Below are positions 2,971 through 32,388 of a stretch of DNA of 64,000 nucleotides, in pieces (the first letter of the stretch is position 1; each line of letters opens with the position of its first letter). Position numbers and translations under genes: made by a program. Where the stretch lies: the NCBI RefSeq assembly GCF_000724625.1, contig NZ_CP007139.1:2542001-2606000 (forward strand), written 5' to 3'. Source of the stretch: Fimbriimonas ginsengisoli Gsoil 348. GTDB taxonomy: Bacteria > Armatimonadota > Fimbriimonadia > Fimbriimonadales > Fimbriimonadaceae. The notes under the pieces are model-generated. The model did not search any database. It was not told the DNA's origin and was given only the letters and a program-made list of their open reading frames with translations.

Positions 2971-3098
2971 TGAGGCGTGAGGCGTGAGGCGTGAGGCGTG
3001 AGCTAGCTTTGCCCATTACCCTTTCCTTACGCCTCACGCTTCACGCTTCACGCCCAACGCCCAACGCCCAACGCCCAACGCTCAACGCTCAACGCCAG
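2971..3098. repeat. Two heptanucleotide tandem arrays
   Basis: Four copies of TGAGGCG lie at 2971-2998, with a partial fifth. At 3029-3098 ten consecutive 7-base units of the form ACGC plus three pyrimidine-rich bases follow (ACGCCTC, ACGCTTC twice, ACGCCCA four times, ACGCTCA twice, ACGCCAG). They fill most of the space between the transporter start and the next gene. Similar 7-base arrays occur elsewhere in the window. Confidence 0.9.
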
Positions 3099-3770: not shown

Positions 3771-4574
3771 TCACTGCCCCTGATTCAACTGCTGTTGCAC
3801 GTCGTCCGGGATGGCCGGCGGGGTGACGACGGAGATCGTTTTGGGATAGTGCCCGAGGTCTAGCTCCTCCAGCGCGGTGTCGATCGACTGAAGCTGCATC
3901 CGCGCCTCCGCGAGTGCTTCCAAGAACTCTTGCGAAGCCATCTCCGGGCTACGACCGACCAGCCGGTAGCCGATTATTTTCATCCGCAAGGTGTCGAGCG
4001 TGGTCATGAAGACCGCGCTCTGCGCCTCCGTCCGCTGCACCCCCGCCATGACCCCCGCGAAGTGGGTCCGGTACTCGGCGATGTTCTTATCCGCCAGGCG
4101 GTAAAGCTCCCGAGACTGCGGGTCGTTCGAGCCCGCCGACCAAGCCGGCGGCTGGTTCAGCATCCCGCGCTCGGTCGACATCACTTCGTGGGACACCATA
4201 TCCGCCCGCCGAAGCGCCCGGTAAAGGGTCTGCGCGACCGACCGCATCGTCTGCGGCATCTCGCGTAAGTCGGCGATCTGGTCGCGGCGCATCTTCTTCA
4301 GCACCTCCTCCAGCCGCATCAGCCGGTCGTGGCATCCCTGCCAGAGCGCCGCCATCCGGCGGTCGTGAAACCGTTTTGTCTGCGCGGCGTTCCAGGAAAC
4401 GATTCCCAGCGACAACAGGATCACAAACAGGCTGGCGAAAGCGAATACCGGCCCGCGGCTAGAGTGGGAGATCATCCAAACCGCCACCATAGAAGCGATC
4501 GTGAAGATCAGGCGCATCGGATCTACCAGCTCTCGAAAGAACAACTGCAGATCGCGGCGGCGAATGTCGTCCAT
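3771..4574 (-). CDS. Membrane-anchored coiled-coil protein, function unknown
   Basis: The 267-residue product has a short charged N-terminus (MDDIRRRDLQLFFREL), two adjacent hydrophobic segments at about 20-37 and 44-60, and then a long helical, charged cytoplasmic domain (heptad-like stretch near 80-115, further helices to 240). I recognise no catalytic motif. It begins 11 bases after the stop of gatA on the same strand and is probably the last gene of a gatC-gatA unit. The function is unknown; the topology suits a membrane-tethered scaffold or sensor. Confidence 0.75.
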   Translation of the reverse strand: MDDIRRRDLQLFFRELVDPMRLIFTIASMVAVWMISHSSRGPVFAFASLFVILLSLGIVSWNAAQTKRFHDRRMAALWQGCHDRLMRLEEVLKKMRRDQIADLREMPQTMRSVAQTLYRALRRADMVSHEVMSTERGMLNQPPAWSAGSNDPQSRELYRLADKNIAEYRTHFAGVMAGVQRTEAQSAVFMTTLDTLRMKIIGYRLVGRSPEMASQEFLEALAEARMQLQSIDTALEELDLGHYPKTISVVTPPAIPDDVQQQLNQGQ

Positions 4575-4585
4575 CTCCGCTTTCC

Positions 4586-6040
4586 TTACGGTATCGGTGG
4601 CCGCCGCGTGGCGTTCGGCAAGATCGATTCGACGCTAAAGGCGATCTGGAGCAACCGCTCGTCCTGCATTACCGGCGCCATCAGTTGTAGACCGACCGGC
4701 AATCCCTCGGCAAATCCGCAGTTCAGCGAGATCCCCGGCATCCCCCCAAGATTCGCGGGAATCGTGCAGAAGTCGAGCAGCTTGAGCGCCATCGGGTCGT
4801 TTTTCAGCTCACCCAACCGAAATGCCGGAATCGGACTCGTGGGCGACAGCACCACGTCGAAATCCCGGAAGGTTCGTTCGAACTCCTGCTGCATCAGCGT
4901 CCGAACCTGTTGCGCCCGCAGGTAGTAAGCGTCGTAGTAGCCCGCGCTGAGCGCGTAGGTGCCTACCATGATGCGGCTCTTGACCTCATGACCGAATCCC
5001 TCGGCCCGCGTCCGCTCCACCACGCCGATGTGCCCGGTCCCCTCGGCCCGAAAGCCGTACCGGATCCCATCGAACCGCGCCAGATTGCTGCTCGCCTCTG
5101 CCGGCGCGATGATGTAGTAGGTGGTGACTCCCAGGGAGATCGTCGGGATCGACACCTCCTCGACGATTGCCCCCTCCTGTCGCATCGCTTCCGCCGCGGC
5201 ATGAACCGCCGCCGCGACCTCCGAGTGGGTCGCCTCTCCGAACATTTCCTTCGGCAACGCCACGCGCAGCCCCTTCAGAGACCCGTTCTTAATCCCTTCG
5301 CTGGAAATCGGCGCCATTTCCAGCGACGTGCCGTCCATCGGATCGTGGCCCGTTATGGCCGAAGCGATCAGCGCGCAATCTTCCACGTTTCGCGCGAACG
5401 GCCCGATCTGGTCGAGACTCGAGCCGAAAGCGATTAACCCGTACCGGGAGCACCGTCCGTACGTCGGCTTGAACCCGACGACTCCGCACAACGCCGCCGG
5501 CTGCCGAATCGACCCGCCGGTATCCGAGCCGAGAGACAAAGGCGCGAGTTCCGCCGCGACCGCCGCCGCCGACCCGCCTGAGCTTCCACCCGGCGAACGC
5601 TCGGTATCCCAAGGGTTGCGCGTAAGCTGGAACGCCGAGTTCTCCGTCGATGTCCCCATCGCGAATTCGTCGAGATTCGTCTTGCCGAGGATCGGCATCC
5701 CCATCTCGCGGAGCCGGCTCACGACCGTTGCGTCGAACGGCGGCACGTACCCTTTCAAAATCTTCGACGCGCACGTCGTTTCCAGCCCGGTGGTGGACAT
5801 ATTGTCCTTGAGCGCGATCGGCACCCCCGTCAAAGCGCCTCCCTCACCCCGGTCGACCAAAGTCTGTGCCCGCTCGGCGGATTCGAGCGCTCCCGCTCGG
5901 TCGACCTTCAAAAACGCGCCGTAGGCAGCGTCTTGGGACTCGATCCGATCGAGAAAGGCGGTCGCTACCTCGACGCACGATAGCTCGCGAGAGGCAATGC
6001 GGCGACCGAGTTCGGCGGCGGAAAGGTGGGTGATCGCCAC
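4586..6040 (-). CDS. gatA: Glutamyl-tRNA(Gln) amidotransferase subunit A
   Basis: GatA is the amidase that releases ammonia from glutamine, which the GatCAB complex uses to convert Glu-tRNA(Gln) to Gln-tRNA(Gln) (or Asp-tRNA(Asn) likewise). At 484 residues it has normal length. The amidase-signature triad is present: the Lys in ALKDNMSTTG, the cis-Ser in SPGGSSGGSAAA and the nucleophile Ser in LGSDTGGSIRQPA. The start at 6040 follows the gatC stop by four bases. gatB is not in the window, so the operon is split as in many bacteria. Confidence 0.97.
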   Translation of the reverse strand: MAITHLSAAELGRRIASRELSCVEVATAFLDRIESQDAAYGAFLKVDRAGALESAERAQTLVDRGEGGALTGVPIALKDNMSTTGLETTCASKILKGYVPPFDATVVSRLREMGMPILGKTNLDEFAMGTSTENSAFQLTRNPWDTERSPGGSSGGSAAAVAAELAPLSLGSDTGGSIRQPAALCGVVGFKPTYGRCSRYGLIAFGSSLDQIGPFARNVEDCALIASAITGHDPMDGTSLEMAPISSEGIKNGSLKGLRVALPKEMFGEATHSEVAAAVHAAAEAMRQEGAIVEEVSIPTISLGVTTYYIIAPAEASSNLARFDGIRYGFRAEGTGHIGVVERTRAEGFGHEVKSRIMVGTYALSAGYYDAYYLRAQQVRTLMQQEFERTFRDFDVVLSPTSPIPAFRLGELKNDPMALKLLDFCTIPANLGGMPGISLNCGFAEGLPVGLQLMAPVMQDERLLQIAFSVESILPNATRRPPIP

Positions 6041-27246: not shown

Positions 27247-29466
27247 CTACATCTTTTCCGGTGCAGAAACGCCCAGCAATTCCAATGCCGATCGCAGGGT
27301 TTGCCGCGCCGCCCGGCAGAGAGCCAGCCGGGCGCGCGTGAGATCCGGCTCACCGGTCTGGATGACTCGGCACTGGTCGTAGAAGTGGTGGTACGTCTTC
27401 GCCAGCTCGATCGCGTAGGTCGCGATCCGGTGCACGCCGTAGTCTTGCGACGCCCGTTGGGTTTCGAACGGAAGGTCGAGGATCTTCTTGGTCAGCGAAA
27501 GCTCCCTCGGATGGGTGAGCTGTCCGGGGTCCATATCCGCACCGAGCACGAACCCGGCTTCTTCCGCCTTGCGCAGCACCGAGCAGATACGCGCGTGGGC
27601 GTATTGGACGTAGAACACGGGATTCTCGTCGCTCTGCTTGGTGGCGAGATCGATGTCGAAGTCCATGTGGGTGTCATGGCTTCGCATCAGATAGAAGAAC
27701 CGCGCGACGTCCGCGCCGATTCGCCGTTGCTCCTCGAGGGTGGCGTCCGGGGCTTGGGCTTTGCCGAGCTCTTCGATGAGGTCGCGCAGCTCGTAGATGT
27801 TGCCGTCTCGCTTCCGCATCGGCGCCGGTTTTCCGTCCTTCACGAACCGCACGATCTGGAAGATGATGATCTCGAACCGCTCCGGCTTCCCATCTTTCAT
27901 CGGGTAGCCGAGCGCTTGGTATGCCGCGTACATCCGACCGATGTATCCGTGGTGGTCGGGGCCGAGGATGAGGAGCGCCTTCTCGTAACCCCGCTCTCCA
28001 AGCTTGTTCTCCAGGTACGCGACGTCGGCGGCGATGTAGGCGGGGCGTCCGTCGGCTCTTACCAGAACCCGGTCCTTCTCGTCCCCAAATCCGTTTGTGT
28101 GCGAGGCGATCCAGAGGGCCGAGCCTTCCTCGGTTGGGTTTTCGTCCTCCTCATCTTCGTATTTGTCCTTCTCGGCGGCGACTTCTTCGGCGTCTCTCGG
28201 TTGGGGAGACCGGTAGGAATTACCGGCTTTTTCCAGTTTTTCTAGCGCGGACTGCACCTTCCCCTCGTCGTGAAGCGACTGCTCGGAGAACCACCGCTGG
28301 AAGTTGACGCCGAAGATTCGAAGGTCGCCCCGCTGCCGCTCGATCATCAATTCCTGAGCGGCTTTTTGGAAGCTGAGAGTGTCCCAAAGGTCGGCGTCGA
28401 CCGGGTCGAGCTCGCCGACGAGGGTGCCGGCGACCGAGAGGGCCGTCTGTTGCTCCTCCGGCAGATCGTGCACGGCGCGGTGGCTGCGGACGAATTCGGT
28501 CAGGCGCCCCTCCCATGCTTCTTGGGAACCGTCCGAGTCCTCGACGAACTCGGGCGCCACGATCTCGAGGAGCAGAAGCCGCTCGAACGTGTCGGTATCC
28601 GGCGTAGTATCCGAAGCTTTGGCATCGGCGACGACTCGGGCGATCAGCTTTTCCTCGGGCGAGTCTCCCTCAATCGGCCCGCCGTCCAAGTGCCGGACGA
28701 ACGATTCGTAGGTAAGCCGCGCGGGGTCCCAGCCGGCTTGCGCGATCGTTTCCGCCAACGCCATTCTCCGAGTTCCGCGCTGCCTCAGCACGAAATCGAG
28801 GAGACCCATGCCGACGTCCTGCACGTACTCGCCGCGATATCCCTTCTCCGGGAAGTCGCCGGGCAGCCCGAGAGCGGTCCGAACGTAGTACTTCACCGAT
28901 TCGGCGAAGAGCCGCATCTGTTCGGAGTTGACGCCGTCGTTGATGTAGTACTCGCGGTCGACTTCGTGCCCGACCGCCTGCATGATCCGGCTCAGCGTGT
29001 CGCCAAATGCCGCGCCGCGGCCGGAGCCGACCGTGATCGGGCCGTTCGGGTTAACGGAGACGAATTCGATGTTGAGGCGTTGGGCGTTGGGCGTTGGGCG
29101 TTGGGCGAAGATGTCGGCTTCGGCGAGAACGCGGGGGATGTAGGCGGCAATGACCTCGGGTTTGAGGCGGAAATTAAGAAAGCCTGGGCCGGCGATATCG
29201 ATGGCTTCGAAGACGCCCGAAGCATCGGCACCCTGCCGATGAACCTCCAGCAGCGCCTCCTTGAGCAGCTCGCCAATCGCCCGGGGGTTCATCCCGGCCC
29301 GTTTGCTCGCGACCAGGGCAAGATTGCACGCGTAGTCGCCGTGCTCGGGATTCTTGGTATCGGAAATCTCGATCGGCGCCCCGCGCACCGCCTCAGGCAG
29401 CTTTCCCTGGGCGATCAGTTGGTCGACGGCGCTCCGAACGAGCTCTTGAAGGTGGTCGCGTAGCAA
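27247..29466 (-). CDS. argS: Arginyl-tRNA synthetase, long form with altered signature motifs
   Basis: The product charges tRNA-Arg. At 739 residues it is well above the usual 550-600. The N-terminal domain, the block EFVSVNPNGPITVGSGRGAA, the GPDHHGYIGRMYAAYQALGY region and the anticodon-binding end (YHHFYDQCRVI...LCRAARQTLRSAL...LGV) identify it. The HIGH-type motif, normally xVGHxR with His, reads TVGSGR, and the KMSKS-type position reads PAPMRKRDGN. A large insertion lies between about 215 and 440. Residues about 120-130 (FAQRPTPNAQR) are encoded by a heptamer array. The start is TTG. It ends at the GC-rich gap. Confidence 0.93.
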   Translation of the reverse strand: MLRDHLQELVRSAVDQLIAQGKLPEAVRGAPIEISDTKNPEHGDYACNLALVASKRAGMNPRAIGELLKEALLEVHRQGADASGVFEAIDIAGPGFLNFRLKPEVIAAYIPRVLAEADIFAQRPTPNAQRLNIEFVSVNPNGPITVGSGRGAAFGDTLSRIMQAVGHEVDREYYINDGVNSEQMRLFAESVKYYVRTALGLPGDFPEKGYRGEYVQDVGMGLLDFVLRQRGTRRMALAETIAQAGWDPARLTYESFVRHLDGGPIEGDSPEEKLIARVVADAKASDTTPDTDTFERLLLLEIVAPEFVEDSDGSQEAWEGRLTEFVRSHRAVHDLPEEQQTALSVAGTLVGELDPVDADLWDTLSFQKAAQELMIERQRGDLRIFGVNFQRWFSEQSLHDEGKVQSALEKLEKAGNSYRSPQPRDAEEVAAEKDKYEDEEDENPTEEGSALWIASHTNGFGDEKDRVLVRADGRPAYIAADVAYLENKLGERGYEKALLILGPDHHGYIGRMYAAYQALGYPMKDGKPERFEIIIFQIVRFVKDGKPAPMRKRDGNIYELRDLIEELGKAQAPDATLEEQRRIGADVARFFYLMRSHDTHMDFDIDLATKQSDENPVFYVQYAHARICSVLRKAEEAGFVLGADMDPGQLTHPRELSLTKKILDLPFETQRASQDYGVHRIATYAIELAKTYHHFYDQCRVIQTGEPDLTRARLALCRAARQTLRSALELLGVSAPEKM
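29077..29104. repeat. Heptamer array inside argS
   Basis: Four perfect GCGTTGG units plus a partial fifth lie in the coding frame. A change of one unit would shift the frame of argS. Confidence 0.9.
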
Positions 29467-29490
29467 GGATATAGGGTACCGCCCTTGATG

Positions 29491-29572
29491 GGCGCTGGGC
29501 GCTGGGCGCTGGGCGCTGGGCGCTGGGCGCTGGGCGCTGGGCGTTGGGGCGTTGGGGCGTTGGGGCGTTGGG
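29491..29572. repeat. Heptamer array upstream of argS
   Basis: Seven perfect copies of GGCGCTG run from 29491 to 29539, followed by one GGCGTTG and three 8-base GGGCGTTG variants. The array ends 24 bases before the argS start codon, where its leader or promoter must lie. Confidence 0.92.
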
Positions 29573-29716
29573 TGTGTTTTGGCTTTACCCTAGCCGATGG
29601 GACGGATGGGACATCTGGGACGCATGGGTCTCAGGTGTCCCATAAGTCTCATTCGGGCAACAATATACTTGACGCACGAAACACCGGGTTTGAACCTGGC
29701 GTGATATTCTGAGGGC

Positions 29717-30115
29717 GTGGCAGAAAAAGAAAAATTCCAGACGGGGGATGACGGGTCGGAATTCGTAAAGCTCCGGATCGACCACGTAAAAAGCCCTCAG
29801 TTCCGGGTGATACACGTCAACCAGGTTCTTGGGGGTACGAACCAGTTCGGGGATCTTTGCATGACTGTCCTCAACGATCGCCCTGGTATCCCCGACTCTT
29901 ACGATTTGCATTGGCACAGCGACGGGCGGCAGGTGATTGTAGACCCTGATGTTTTCGAGGATGGTAATTTAGTTGCGGTCCGAGAAGTTGAAGCCGTCCT
30001 CATGATGTCACTGCCGGTCGCCAACCTAGTAATGAATTGGATCAAGGCTCATCTTGAAGCCTACGCACGGGCAGAACGGCAATTAGCTGGCCAACCAGCG
30101 GAGTCCGGGGAGTAG
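29717..30115 (+). CDS. Transposon passenger protein 1, function unknown
   Basis: The 132-residue product starts at GTG 36 bases inside the left end. It contains FRVIHVNQVLGGTNQFGDLC followed by a C-terminal helix (SLPVANLVMNWIKAHLEAYAR). The layout (N-terminal strands with an asparagine, then 'xxSLPxAxxxxxxIxxxLxxY') vaguely recalls DUF3467-type small proteins; this is only a resemblance. No membrane segment. Eight bases separate it from the next passenger gene. Confidence 0.7.
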   Translation: MAEKEKFQTGDDGSEFVKLRIDHVKSPQFRVIHVNQVLGGTNQFGDLCMTVLNDRPGIPDSYDLHWHSDGRQVIVDPDVFEDGNLVAVREVEAVLMMSLPVANLVMNWIKAHLEAYARAERQLAGQPAESGE

Positions 30116-30123
30116 GAAAGCAA

Positions 30124-30732
30124 GTGGAGCGCTTGAACCCCCAGATTCAGCACACCGCGAGGGAGTGGTACTTACTTGCGCAGGAAGTGGCCGATCATCA
30201 AAGGAACCCCCCTTTGATGCCCACCGGGCGGCCGCCTGCGCCGCCGTTAATGAGTGAGCCTCAACAGCCTTCTGGTATGCGGAGTGCCGAGGAACCAAAC
30301 TTTCCATTCGTTGTCCTAGACACAAACGTCGTCCTGCAGCATTGGCAGTCGTCGCGTTCCCTACAAATCCCAAATGTGGCGGAAACGTCTCATGTCGCAC
30401 CCAAGCTCTCAGCGGCGTTGGCGTTTGCTATTGAGAAGAACAAGCAGATGAACGAGCGTAAATTCGAGCGACTGAAAAATCAGTGGTTGCGCGAGATTCG
30501 GGCGGGAATGCGGATCAAAGAGATGACGATGCTTGCTCCGTACCAGCAGATCATCGGCATGGGTGAGCGTGCGTTACCGTTCCTGTTTCGCGAGTTGCGA
30601 ACCAAGCCACGCTATTGGTTTTGGGCACTCGAATCGATCGTTTGCGAAAACCCTATCCCCGAAGAATCTTACGGCGATATGCGGCTAATGACGGAAGCTT
30701 GGCTTGGTTGGGCAGGTACCCGTGGGTATTGA
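30124..30732 (+). CDS. Transposon passenger protein 2, conserved family of unknown function
   Basis: The frame has 202 codons from GTG. The conserved part is the C-terminal 95 residues: FERLKNQWLREIRAG, PYQQIIGMGERALPFLFREL, PRYWFWALESIVCENPIP and MTEAWLGWAGTRGY. I recall this pattern from an uncharacterised family found in many bacteria beside a cysteine-peptidase-like partner, as here. The N-terminal 105 residues are Pro-rich and may be untranslated in part or a distinct domain; ATG at 30250 (MSEPQQPSG) is an alternative start. It overlaps the next gene. Confidence 0.75.
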   Translation: MERLNPQIQHTAREWYLLAQEVADHQRNPPLMPTGRPPAPPLMSEPQQPSGMRSAEEPNFPFVVLDTNVVLQHWQSSRSLQIPNVAETSHVAPKLSAALAFAIEKNKQMNERKFERLKNQWLREIRAGMRIKEMTMLAPYQQIIGMGERALPFLFRELRTKPRYWFWALESIVCENPIPEESYGDMRLMTEAWLGWAGTRGY

Positions 30733-31177
30733 CTGGGATAGCCCAGAAACGCCAGAGCAACGCATTGACCGGATCTTTTGCGGCAGGCCCGTTCAGATCA
30801 CCAGCGACGAAGATTGGCAGTACAACTGCGTTGCTTGGGCGGCTGGGCATAAAGACAAATTTTGGACGCACGAGACCGGGTATGGGACCTACACGTATTG
30901 GCCACCAGGAATTCCACGCGGCAACTCGCTGGCGCATCTAGTCGCAGTATTCGAGTGGCTTGGATTTGTTGCTTGCGGAGACGAAACGGTCGAGCCAGAA
31001 GTCGACAAGATTGCATTATTTGAGCAAGACGGCGAGTGGGCGCATGCTTGCAAGCAGTGTGACGACGGTCGTTGGTGGAGCAAGATGGACTTTTTCGAGG
31101 ATGTTAAACACACCATTGACGATGTCGTGGCAGTCTACGGATCAAACCCTGTCTTTATGAAGCGCCCGCGCGCCTAG
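30722..31177 (+). CDS. Transposon passenger protein 3, papain-like Cys/His protein of unknown function
   Basis: The product (about 151 residues from GTG 30722; TTG 30704 is also possible) contains WQYNCVAWAAGHKDKFW with a candidate nucleophile Cys, YTYWPPGIPRGNSLAHLVAVF, VDKIALFEQDGEWAHACKQ with a candidate His, and GRWWSKMDFFEDVKHTIDDV. Cys in an NCxAWA context and a later His in HAxxQ suggest a papain-like or NlpC-like fold. The stop of the preceding gene lies inside its start region, so translation is coupled. The pair recurs in other genomes (recollection, not a search). Its last 23 bases overlap the convergent 65-codon gene. Confidence 0.78.
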   Translation: MGIDWDSPETPEQRIDRIFCGRPVQITSDEDWQYNCVAWAAGHKDKFWTHETGYGTYTYWPPGIPRGNSLAHLVAVFEWLGFVACGDETVEPEVDKIALFEQDGEWAHACKQCDDGRWWSKMDFFEDVKHTIDDVVAVYGSNPVFMKRPRA

Positions 31178-31352
31178 AATCGCGAGCAAGTTTGTTTTTC
31201 GCTCCGGCCTCATTCAACCGTTTATCCAGTTCCGACTTCGGAACCTTGAATATCTCGCGAGTTAAGTTATCCAAGGCGACCATGCTAGGATCGCTTTGGC
31301 CCTCTCCGGGGTCTTTTGTGCCGTCCGCAGGCAATGTCTTTTCAGTATCCAA
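31155..31352 (-). CDS. Small protein encoded after the transposase gene
   Basis: The 65-residue frame starts at TTG, 11 bases inside the end of the transposase gene in another frame. It encodes DTEKTLPADGTKDPGEGQ, then a helix MVALDNLTREIFKVPKSEL, then DKRLNEAGAKNKLARDSRR. The 'IFxVPKSELDKR' stretch resembles short proteins often seen beside other elements. Translational coupling to the transposase is likely. It may modulate transposition or act as a small regulator; this is inference. A longer in-frame reading back to 31505 overlaps the transposase and is judged not to be used. Confidence 0.6.
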   Translation of the reverse strand: MDTEKTLPADGTKDPGEGQSDPSMVALDNLTREIFKVPKSELDKRLNEAGAKNKLARDSRRAGAS

Positions 31353-32301
31353 TCGCTTCCTCCTTACCGGTGAGCTTCTTATAGGTGAGTCGCTTACCTG
31401 AAACCTGCGAAGCAAGCGTCTTGAACCGGCTCGCATCAGTTCCCTTGCGCTCGTTGAACCGGAAAGCTTGCTCGTCAAGGTAGCGGTGAAGGTGGAACGG
31501 CTCAACGCTGACGTAGGTTCCGCGAATCGTTCGCTTTAGGAGACTCCAATAGTTCTCCATGCAATTCGTGCTCACGCGACCGTTGACGTACTCGACGGCG
31601 TGGTCTACCATTTCATGTCGGAACCAGTCCGGAAGCATGACGTACGCCGGGTTGGAGTCGGTGTAGAGCCAAGAATCCGGGTGGATGTGCTTTTTGAGTA
31701 GCGGAACGAGACTATTTGCCCTACGGTCCTCGACGTGAAAAGTTCGCACCGAACCGTCCCGCTCAATCATTCCGAGAACGACCGAACGATGGCCCTGGGA
31801 GCCCTGCTTGATCCCTTTGGCTTCTCTGACGTCCTGGTGGATGTTTCGAGCGTTGGCCCCGATGAACGTTTCGTCTACCTCGACTTCAACGCCGTTCTTG
31901 CCGCCCATCTTCTCAAACGACTCTTGCTGCATCGCAAGGCGAATCCGGTGAAGCATGAACCACGCGGTTTTCTGCGTCACGCCTAACGCGCGGTGCAACT
32001 CGTAAGACGAGATACCGTTCTTGGCGTTGGCAATGAGCCACATAGCCGGAATCCACTTGGAGAGCTTGATGGGGGAATCCTCGAAGATCGTGCCGACCTT
32101 TACGGAGAACTGCTTGCGGCAGCCGTTACAGCGCCAAATCATCCGGGACTCGATCAGGTGGACGCGGTCGCACTCGCATCGCGGGCAACTGACCCCGTTC
32201 GGCCATCGCCGGTTCCGCATGTACTCCCATGCGGTGCGCTCGTCCGCGAAGTGGATAACCACTTCGAGAAGAGTTTTCGGGGTCACGTCTTTCGTGCTCA
32301 C
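31342..32301 (-). CDS. IS1595-family transposase
   Basis: The 319-residue protein has an N-terminal zinc ribbon (VSCPRCECDRV and WRCNGCRKQFS), a helix-turn-helix-like SSYELHRALGVTQKTAWFML, and the catalytic core with VEVDETFIG, YTDSNPAY and the N/E segment STNCMENYWSLLKR, which fits the DD(E/N)K pattern of IS1595. Length is normal and no frameshift is seen, so it is likely active. The GTG start lies inside a palindrome next to the right terminal repeat. Confidence 0.95.
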   Translation of the reverse strand: MSTKDVTPKTLLEVVIHFADERTAWEYMRNRRWPNGVSCPRCECDRVHLIESRMIWRCNGCRKQFSVKVGTIFEDSPIKLSKWIPAMWLIANAKNGISSYELHRALGVTQKTAWFMLHRIRLAMQQESFEKMGGKNGVEVEVDETFIGANARNIHQDVREAKGIKQGSQGHRSVVLGMIERDGSVRTFHVEDRRANSLVPLLKKHIHPDSWLYTDSNPAYVMLPDWFRHEMVDHAVEYVNGRVSTNCMENYWSLLKRTIRGTYVSVEPFHLHRYLDEQAFRFNERKGTDASRFKTLASQVSGKRLTYKKLTGKEEAIGY

Positions 32302-32326
32302 GAAGTTATTATAGCATAACTTCGTG
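32299..32326 (-). promoter_or_regulatory. Palindrome and -10-like box at the transposase start
   Basis: CACGAAGTTAT and ATAACTTCGTG are perfect 11-base inverted repeats with a 6-base spacer, overlapping the GTG start codon and reaching into the terminal repeat. On the minus strand TGCTATAAT reads as an extended -10, and TTGACA lies 13 bases upstream inside the terminal repeat, which is too close for a normal -35. It could be an operator for self-control of the transposase. Confidence 0.45.
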
Positions 32327-32360
32327 TGTCAAGTATATTGTTGCCCTCATTCGTCCCATC

Positions 32361-32388
32361 AGTCCACAGTCCATAGTCCACAGTCCAC
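32361..32388. repeat. Heptamer array, unit AGTCCAC
   Basis: Four head-to-tail AGTCCAC units (one ends in T) lie just right of the transposon, in the spacer before pilB. Confidence 0.85.

Follow-up and report, generated by a model that had tools for sequence, protein, structure and literature searches.

An intact IS1595-family transposon with passenger genes between argS and pilB in Fimbriimonas ginsengisoli, and the varied cargo of its relatives in Armatimonadota

Described carriers and the element in the window

Small transposable elements with a single transposase are usually treated as carrying only themselves. Insertion sequence copies that bear passenger genes have been named 'transporter IS' (tIS), a term that two sources trace to the 2009 IS1595 paper of Siguier, Gagnevin and Chandler (PMC3129680, PMC7986276). 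The hallmarks of the IS1595 family have been set out, and an N-terminal zinc ribbon is found in all of its groups but IS1016 (PMC8101967). In Xanthomonas and Ralstonia, copies are as a rule plain, about 1,000 bp long and with a single open reading frame (PMC11092175). The elements tISCpe8 and MTnSag1 are of IS1595 type with 25-bp ends; their replicative excision via a circle is thought likely, and a copy-out circular intermediate has been proposed for the family (PMC5704250).

The element described here lies in a 64,000-nucleotide stretch of the Fimbriimonas ginsengisoli Gsoil 348 genome (contig NZ_CP007139.1, positions 2,542,001 to 2,606,000), which we refer to as the window, and it is a member of the known tIS kind: three rightward open reading frames unrelated to transposition, one of them encoding a DUF7689 protein, lie within its ends. 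It shares with tIS an IS1595 transposase with a zinc ribbon, ends of about 25 bp, an 8-bp target duplication and passengers, but differs in that all bounded elements seen in the phylum have cargo, which turns over between elements. Neither its cargo set nor a small additional reading frame with a VPKxEl motif is described in the tIS literature searched. Like tISCpe8 and MTnSag1 (PMC5704250), it is a small IS1595-type element with 25-bp ends and cargo; unlike them, it has no resistance gene, whereas their cargo is lincomycin resistance (for tISCpe8, by a cited title) and the elements themselves are mobilised by conjugation. Likewise, it resembles Tn3-family transposons that carry exchangeable toxin-antitoxin-type gene pairs (PMC7157771), although the Tn3 transposase is unrelated and the Tn3 pairs belong to known toxin families, whereas the toxin role of the pair in the window is putative. 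In Tn7-like transposons, too, nearly every element bears cargo, including defence and toxin-antitoxin genes (PMC8649781), but these are multi-protein systems, whereas the IS1595 elements considered here have one transposase in 2-4 kb.

Anatomy and insertion site

The transposon occupies positions 29656-32345 of the window (2,690 bp). Its left terminal inverted repeat, IRL (GGCAACAATATACTTGACGCACGAA, 29656-29680, plus strand), agrees at 24 of 25 positions with the right one, IRR (GGCAACAATATACTTGACACACGAA, the reverse complement of 32321-32345, minus strand), and identical 8-bp copies of the target duplication CTCATTCG adjoin them at 29648-29655 and 32346-32353. The element therefore has the hallmarks of its family, an 8-bp duplication and terminal inverted repeats that start with GG (GGCAACAA...). 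By itself the octamer is uninformative, with 3 copies in the window against 3.3 expected; its exact repetition outside such closely matching ends cannot be chance. The end motif has no other occurrence in the single-contig 5.23-Mb genome, even allowing 3 mismatches, and the whole element is present as one copy, so that there is no sign of recent movement. Its GC content is 54.6%, against 61.4% for the window.

The transposase gene (31342-32301, minus strand, 319 aa) is full length, with matches to the IS1595 catalytic domain, DDE_Tnp_IS1595 (PF12762, E 7.6e-36, and NF033547, E 8e-53, both above cut-off), and to the N-terminal zinc ribbon of the family (PF12760, E 1.6e-11); the cysteines C39, C42, C58 and C61 and the residues D143, D215 and E249 are kept in at least 27 of 28 aligned relatives. 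A preliminary description of this DNA, made from its letters alone, had proposed an intact IS1595-type transposon at just these boundaries, with near-identical ends, a perfect duplication and a full-length transposase, and the ends, the duplication copies and the domain matches bear this out. The element is intact and its anatomy secure; it is probably autonomous and presumably active in transposition, and its transposase would most likely move it through a copied-out circular intermediate, as has been proposed for the family. The three rightward genes of the preliminary description are present as well, but a fourth non-transposase reading frame had been overlooked. This small gene (31155-31352, minus strand, 65 aa, with the VPKxEl motif) starts within the 3' end of the transposase gene and so overlaps it, and small proteins with the motif hold the same position after the transposase in 10 of the 26 family elements examined below. 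We take it as part of the transposon backbone, and an accessory role in transposition would be our guess.

At the right end, a perfect 11-bp palindrome, CACGAAGTTAT-GCTATA-ATAACTTCGTG (32299-32326, minus strand; RNA z-score -5.0), spans a TATAAT-like box and the transposase start codon and is a possible operator or leader hairpin of the transposase gene; end-proximal palindromes of equal length occur only in relatives L035 and L156, with different sequences. By eye, the terminal repeats of relatives' elements (for example L146, L148, L149 and L150) contain TTGACA, in several with a TATAAT-like box 17 nt inward on the transposase side, and in several relatives the element end seems from its sequence to serve also as the -35 box of the transposase promoter. 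The corresponding gap, also by eye, is 13-14 nt in the window and its near relatives, and at the right end of the window element it is 13 nt, an unusual spacing. A sigma-70 promoter for the cargo was considered and rejected, a scan having given no more promoter-like sites than shuffles.

The element lies between the divergent genes argS and pilB. Empty sites in relatives, a check proposed with the preliminary description, are indeed seen: in four congeners (G019, G005, G012 and G004) argS directly adjoins pilB, with about 240-410 bp between them and no insert, and removal of the element and one duplication copy from the window would leave a gap of about 407 bp. Nor was any relative seen with the passengers at this locus but without transposase and ends, a pattern that would have spoken against that description, DUF7689 being absent from 60 relatives; across the phylum, it occurs in 11 of 291 genomes, at 13 loci. 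Because of the empty argS-pilB intervals, the absence and patchiness of DUF7689 and the lower GC content, the cargo looks foreign and appears to have arrived with, or as part of, the transposon. The original reading, an intact IS1595 transposon with passengers, is thus supported by all tests run.

The insertion site lies amid short TGGGAC-type and CAGTCCA repeats (flanks 29596-29655 and 32346-32388), and the sequences on either side of the element make up a 13-nt inverted repeat (92%). Heptamer arrays (TGGGCGY)n are found at 29489-29572, 29071-29107 and 3029-3096, and one such array lies within argS, encoding RPTPNAQ repeats. Genome-wide, the 20-mer pattern of the arrays has 53 forward and 69 reverse matches at many separate sites, against 0 in a reversed control.

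Cargo in the Armatimonadota lineage

Ends and duplications were sought around the transposases of 33 relatives. This search bounded 23 elements automatically; the end pattern located two more, L029 and L032, which have 9-bp repeats on both sides, and in L028 and L036, whose target is a tandem repeat, the exact boundary base is ambiguous. The 26 bounded elements, including that of the window, are 1.7-4.4 kb long and all contain extra DNA; a bare insertion sequence of about 1.1 kb, which the search was able to find, is not among them. Three of their transposase genes (L034, L035 and L036) look broken or truncated, as does that of L153. L025, L026, L144 and L032 are inserted in near-perfect palindromes, such as CCCTCCCCC-AA-GGGGGAGGG in L025, which are possibly terminators; palindromic targets were rejected as a family rule, being striking in these four (matched by no more than 2 of 60 control sites) and not in the window or most others.

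The cargo is mostly unrelated between elements, and in several relatives it bears no label of defence or toxin. Apart from the DUF7689 pair, homologues were seen in just three sets: a protein of about 290 aa (L026, L029, L031), an XRE protein (L029, L034) and a SocA-like protein (L025, L145). The 4.4-kb element L145 (700-5096) combines the SocA-like protein with an EcoRI-type methylase (E 1e-120) and a REase_II match (E 1.7e-132), together a complete type II restriction-modification system. In L024 a C5 methylase accompanies an HNH REase_II match, and L147 has a DUF5615 PIN-like protein beside a protein that weakly matches DUF433, plus SocA. Other cargo includes a PIN protein (L153), a weak HEPN match (L146), DUF3800 (L033) and P63C (L156). 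Because the cargo of many elements is unlabelled, we do not claim a measured enrichment.

It is worth considering whether such passengers are accidental hitchhikers, DNA trapped between two IS1595-type ends whose gene identity means nothing to the element. This would agree with cargo that differs in nearly every relative and often encodes proteins without a recognisable family, and with the lack of IS1595 transposases near the 74 loci that a genome scan returned for the window's ORF2/DUF7689 pair (within the flanks examined, and outside the window and L154). However, the cargo is intact and compactly coding and includes complete units of function, two type II restriction-modification pairs for example; homologues turn up as cargo of more than one element (the DUF7689 pair, the SocA type, the ~290-aa family in three and the XRE type in two); and no bounded element is bare. 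We consider this explanation unlikely. The reading that we favour, and hold to be fairly probable, is that an intact, probably autonomous IS1595 transposon sits between argS and pilB with a backbone of ends, transposase and VPKxEl protein, that its cargo is a horizontally spreading ORF2/DUF7689 unit preceded by ORF1, and that it belongs to a lineage whose elements carry cargo as a rule, with a content that varies from one to the next and includes restriction-modification and toxin-antitoxin-like genes.

The ORF2/DUF7689 pair and its second capture

The first cargo gene, ORF1 (29717-30115, plus strand, 132 aa), has no family match in Pfam (even at E 1), NCBIfam, PADLOC or PHROG. By eye it resembles DUF3467, and L161 has a DUF3467 protein, but this assignment was rejected, as Pfam gave no match at E 1. 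A distant homologue holds the same position in locus L126 (phmmer E 9e-5), and ORF1 is tied to the ORF2/ORF3 pair in these two loci only; elsewhere in the phylum, distant members stand beside unrelated genes, one of them by a HicA/HicB-like pair (by eye). ORF2 (30124-30732, plus strand, 202 aa) has a conserved helical domain in about its last 90 residues (about 30454-30732), which has no match among solved folds, and an N-terminal part that varies widely. Its identification as a ribbon-helix-helix antitoxin was rejected, since by eye just the L042/L133 protein has that appearance and the N-termini are diverse.

ORF3 (30722-31177, plus strand, 151 aa) shares 11 nt with the end of ORF2, its start being more likely, from an alignment, the GTG at 30722 than the TTG at 30704. 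It matches DUF7689 (PF24738) over positions 1-118 of 118 (E 1.3e-30; 107 bits against a cut-off of 22.6). In the structure model (pLDDT 90.8), helix 36-41 begins with Cys36 and strand 105-112 contains His108, and both residues are invariant in 26 sequences. Most of the structural neighbours belong to the papain-like or NlpC/P60 enzymes, each match being weak: the best Foldseek match, a papain-like cysteine protease toxin/immunity pair, has an E of 0.047, non-significant alone, the best structural Z is 5.5, below the tool's caution level of 8, and a PDB sequence search for DUF7689 relatives gave nothing convincing (one match, E 0.82). Because the neighbours agree with one another and Cys and His follow in the fitting order, with no single match significant, the likeliest reading of the model is that DUF7689 is a cysteine hydrolase of papain-like Cys-His fold, and ORF3 would then be a Cys36/His108 hydrolase, perhaps with protease activity. 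Plasmid matches were found for neither ORF1 nor ORF3, phage matches were not found for ORF3, and PHROG gave none that convinced; PADLOC 2023 had no match for ORFs 1-3 at E 0.01, nor was there a match to a toxin family.

The ORF2-domain scan covered 84,980 species genomes, and DUF7689 lies directly downstream of the domain in 57 of its 74 loci. Most hosts are cyanobacteria or planctomycetes; the others include Nitrospirota, Omnitrophota and Armatimonadota. ORF2 and ORF3 are adjacent, small and codirectional, which is the layout of a type II toxin-antitoxin pair; they are presumably co-transcribed. The last ~90 residues of ORF2 and the whole of ORF3 make up a conserved two-gene unit, which probably spreads horizontally. 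In L126, an ORF1-like gene, ORF2 and DUF7689 follow one another in the same order as in the window, and hence the three-gene set is not unique to the window transposon. The preliminary description was right that IS1595 elements are known to carry passengers, and the gene set is undescribed as a mobile module in the literature searched, but L126 indicates that the set is not confined to this element. The L126 genes (4390-5707, in a Nitrospinota MAG) lie between genes of fatty-acid-synthesis type (reductases and a dehydratase, by eye), with no IS1595 transposase nearby.

A search for the same passengers between IS1595 ends elsewhere, also proposed at the outset, returned the ORF2/ORF3 pair but not ORF1. 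In G134, of another genus of the same family, the IS1595 element L154 (1698-5899; ends 20/20, duplication CAAAGTTT) carries an ORF2-domain/DUF7689 pair, in which the ORF2 domain forms the C-terminus of an 880-aa N6-adenine methyltransferase (PF02384, E 4e-37). Thus 2 of the 13 DUF7689 loci of the phylum are within IS1595 elements; without the window it is 1 of 12, against an expectation below 0.001 from elements that occupy about 70 kb in roughly 1 Gb. The two captures look independent because identity between L154 and the window is 36% for the transposase, about 31% for DUF7689 and about 43% for the ORF2 domain.

Two further explanations of the pair have little probability in our estimate. 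The cargo might be a host-beneficial metabolic or regulatory set, with DUF7689 a housekeeping-type hydrolase and its helical partner an adaptor, rather than a toxin or defence system; the lack of PADLOC and toxin family matches is in keeping with this, as is the frequency of the pair in some cyanobacteria, where, judged by record names, individual genomes have two or more copies, but the patchy distribution within the phylum, the occurrence in mobile elements, the methyltransferase fusion of the ORF2 domain and the small, overlapping two-gene layout all argue against it. Equally improbable is a single ancestral capture in a common transposon, which the shared IS1595 type and bacterial family of the two carriers would allow, but which fits poorly with their divergent transposases, with the other cargo of lineages nearer to the window transposase (54-62%), with ends that differ between the two elements and with a methyltransferase fusion present in one of them only.

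Under our favoured reading, of captured cargo that spreads horizontally, the gene set is probably a selfish or defence-type protease module. ORF3 would be the effector and ORF2, the small helical partner, its restrainer or sensor, and the module would penalise loss of the element or harm infected cells; the role of the pair would be one in toxin-antitoxin action or defence. We raise only tentatively, and with more doubt than belief, the fuller proposal that ORF2 and DUF7689 constitute an undescribed cysteine-protease toxin-antitoxin or abortive-infection system, with a DNA methyltransferase attached in one case as its sensor or modifier. The system would spread across phyla and be captured time and again by a lineage of minimal IS1595 transposons that serve as interchangeable vehicles for defence and addiction modules.

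DUF7689 is unmentioned in the literature searched, and neither a cargo-swapping IS1595 lineage nor a DUF7689 module was found described there, the passenger list of the 2009 IS1595 paper lying outside that search. As far as was searched, then, what is new is the lineage-wide, changing cargo in Armatimonadota together with the recurring ORF2/DUF7689 module. Given that the ends in this lineage are easily mapped and invariably enclose cargo, which usually differs between elements, the stretch between them is a natural place to trap compact modules of a selfish or defence kind, among them families that have no assigned function. Two questions become testable as a result: whether IS1595 cargo is enriched for such modules across bacteria, and what role is played by the widespread, unstudied ORF2/DUF7689 pair.
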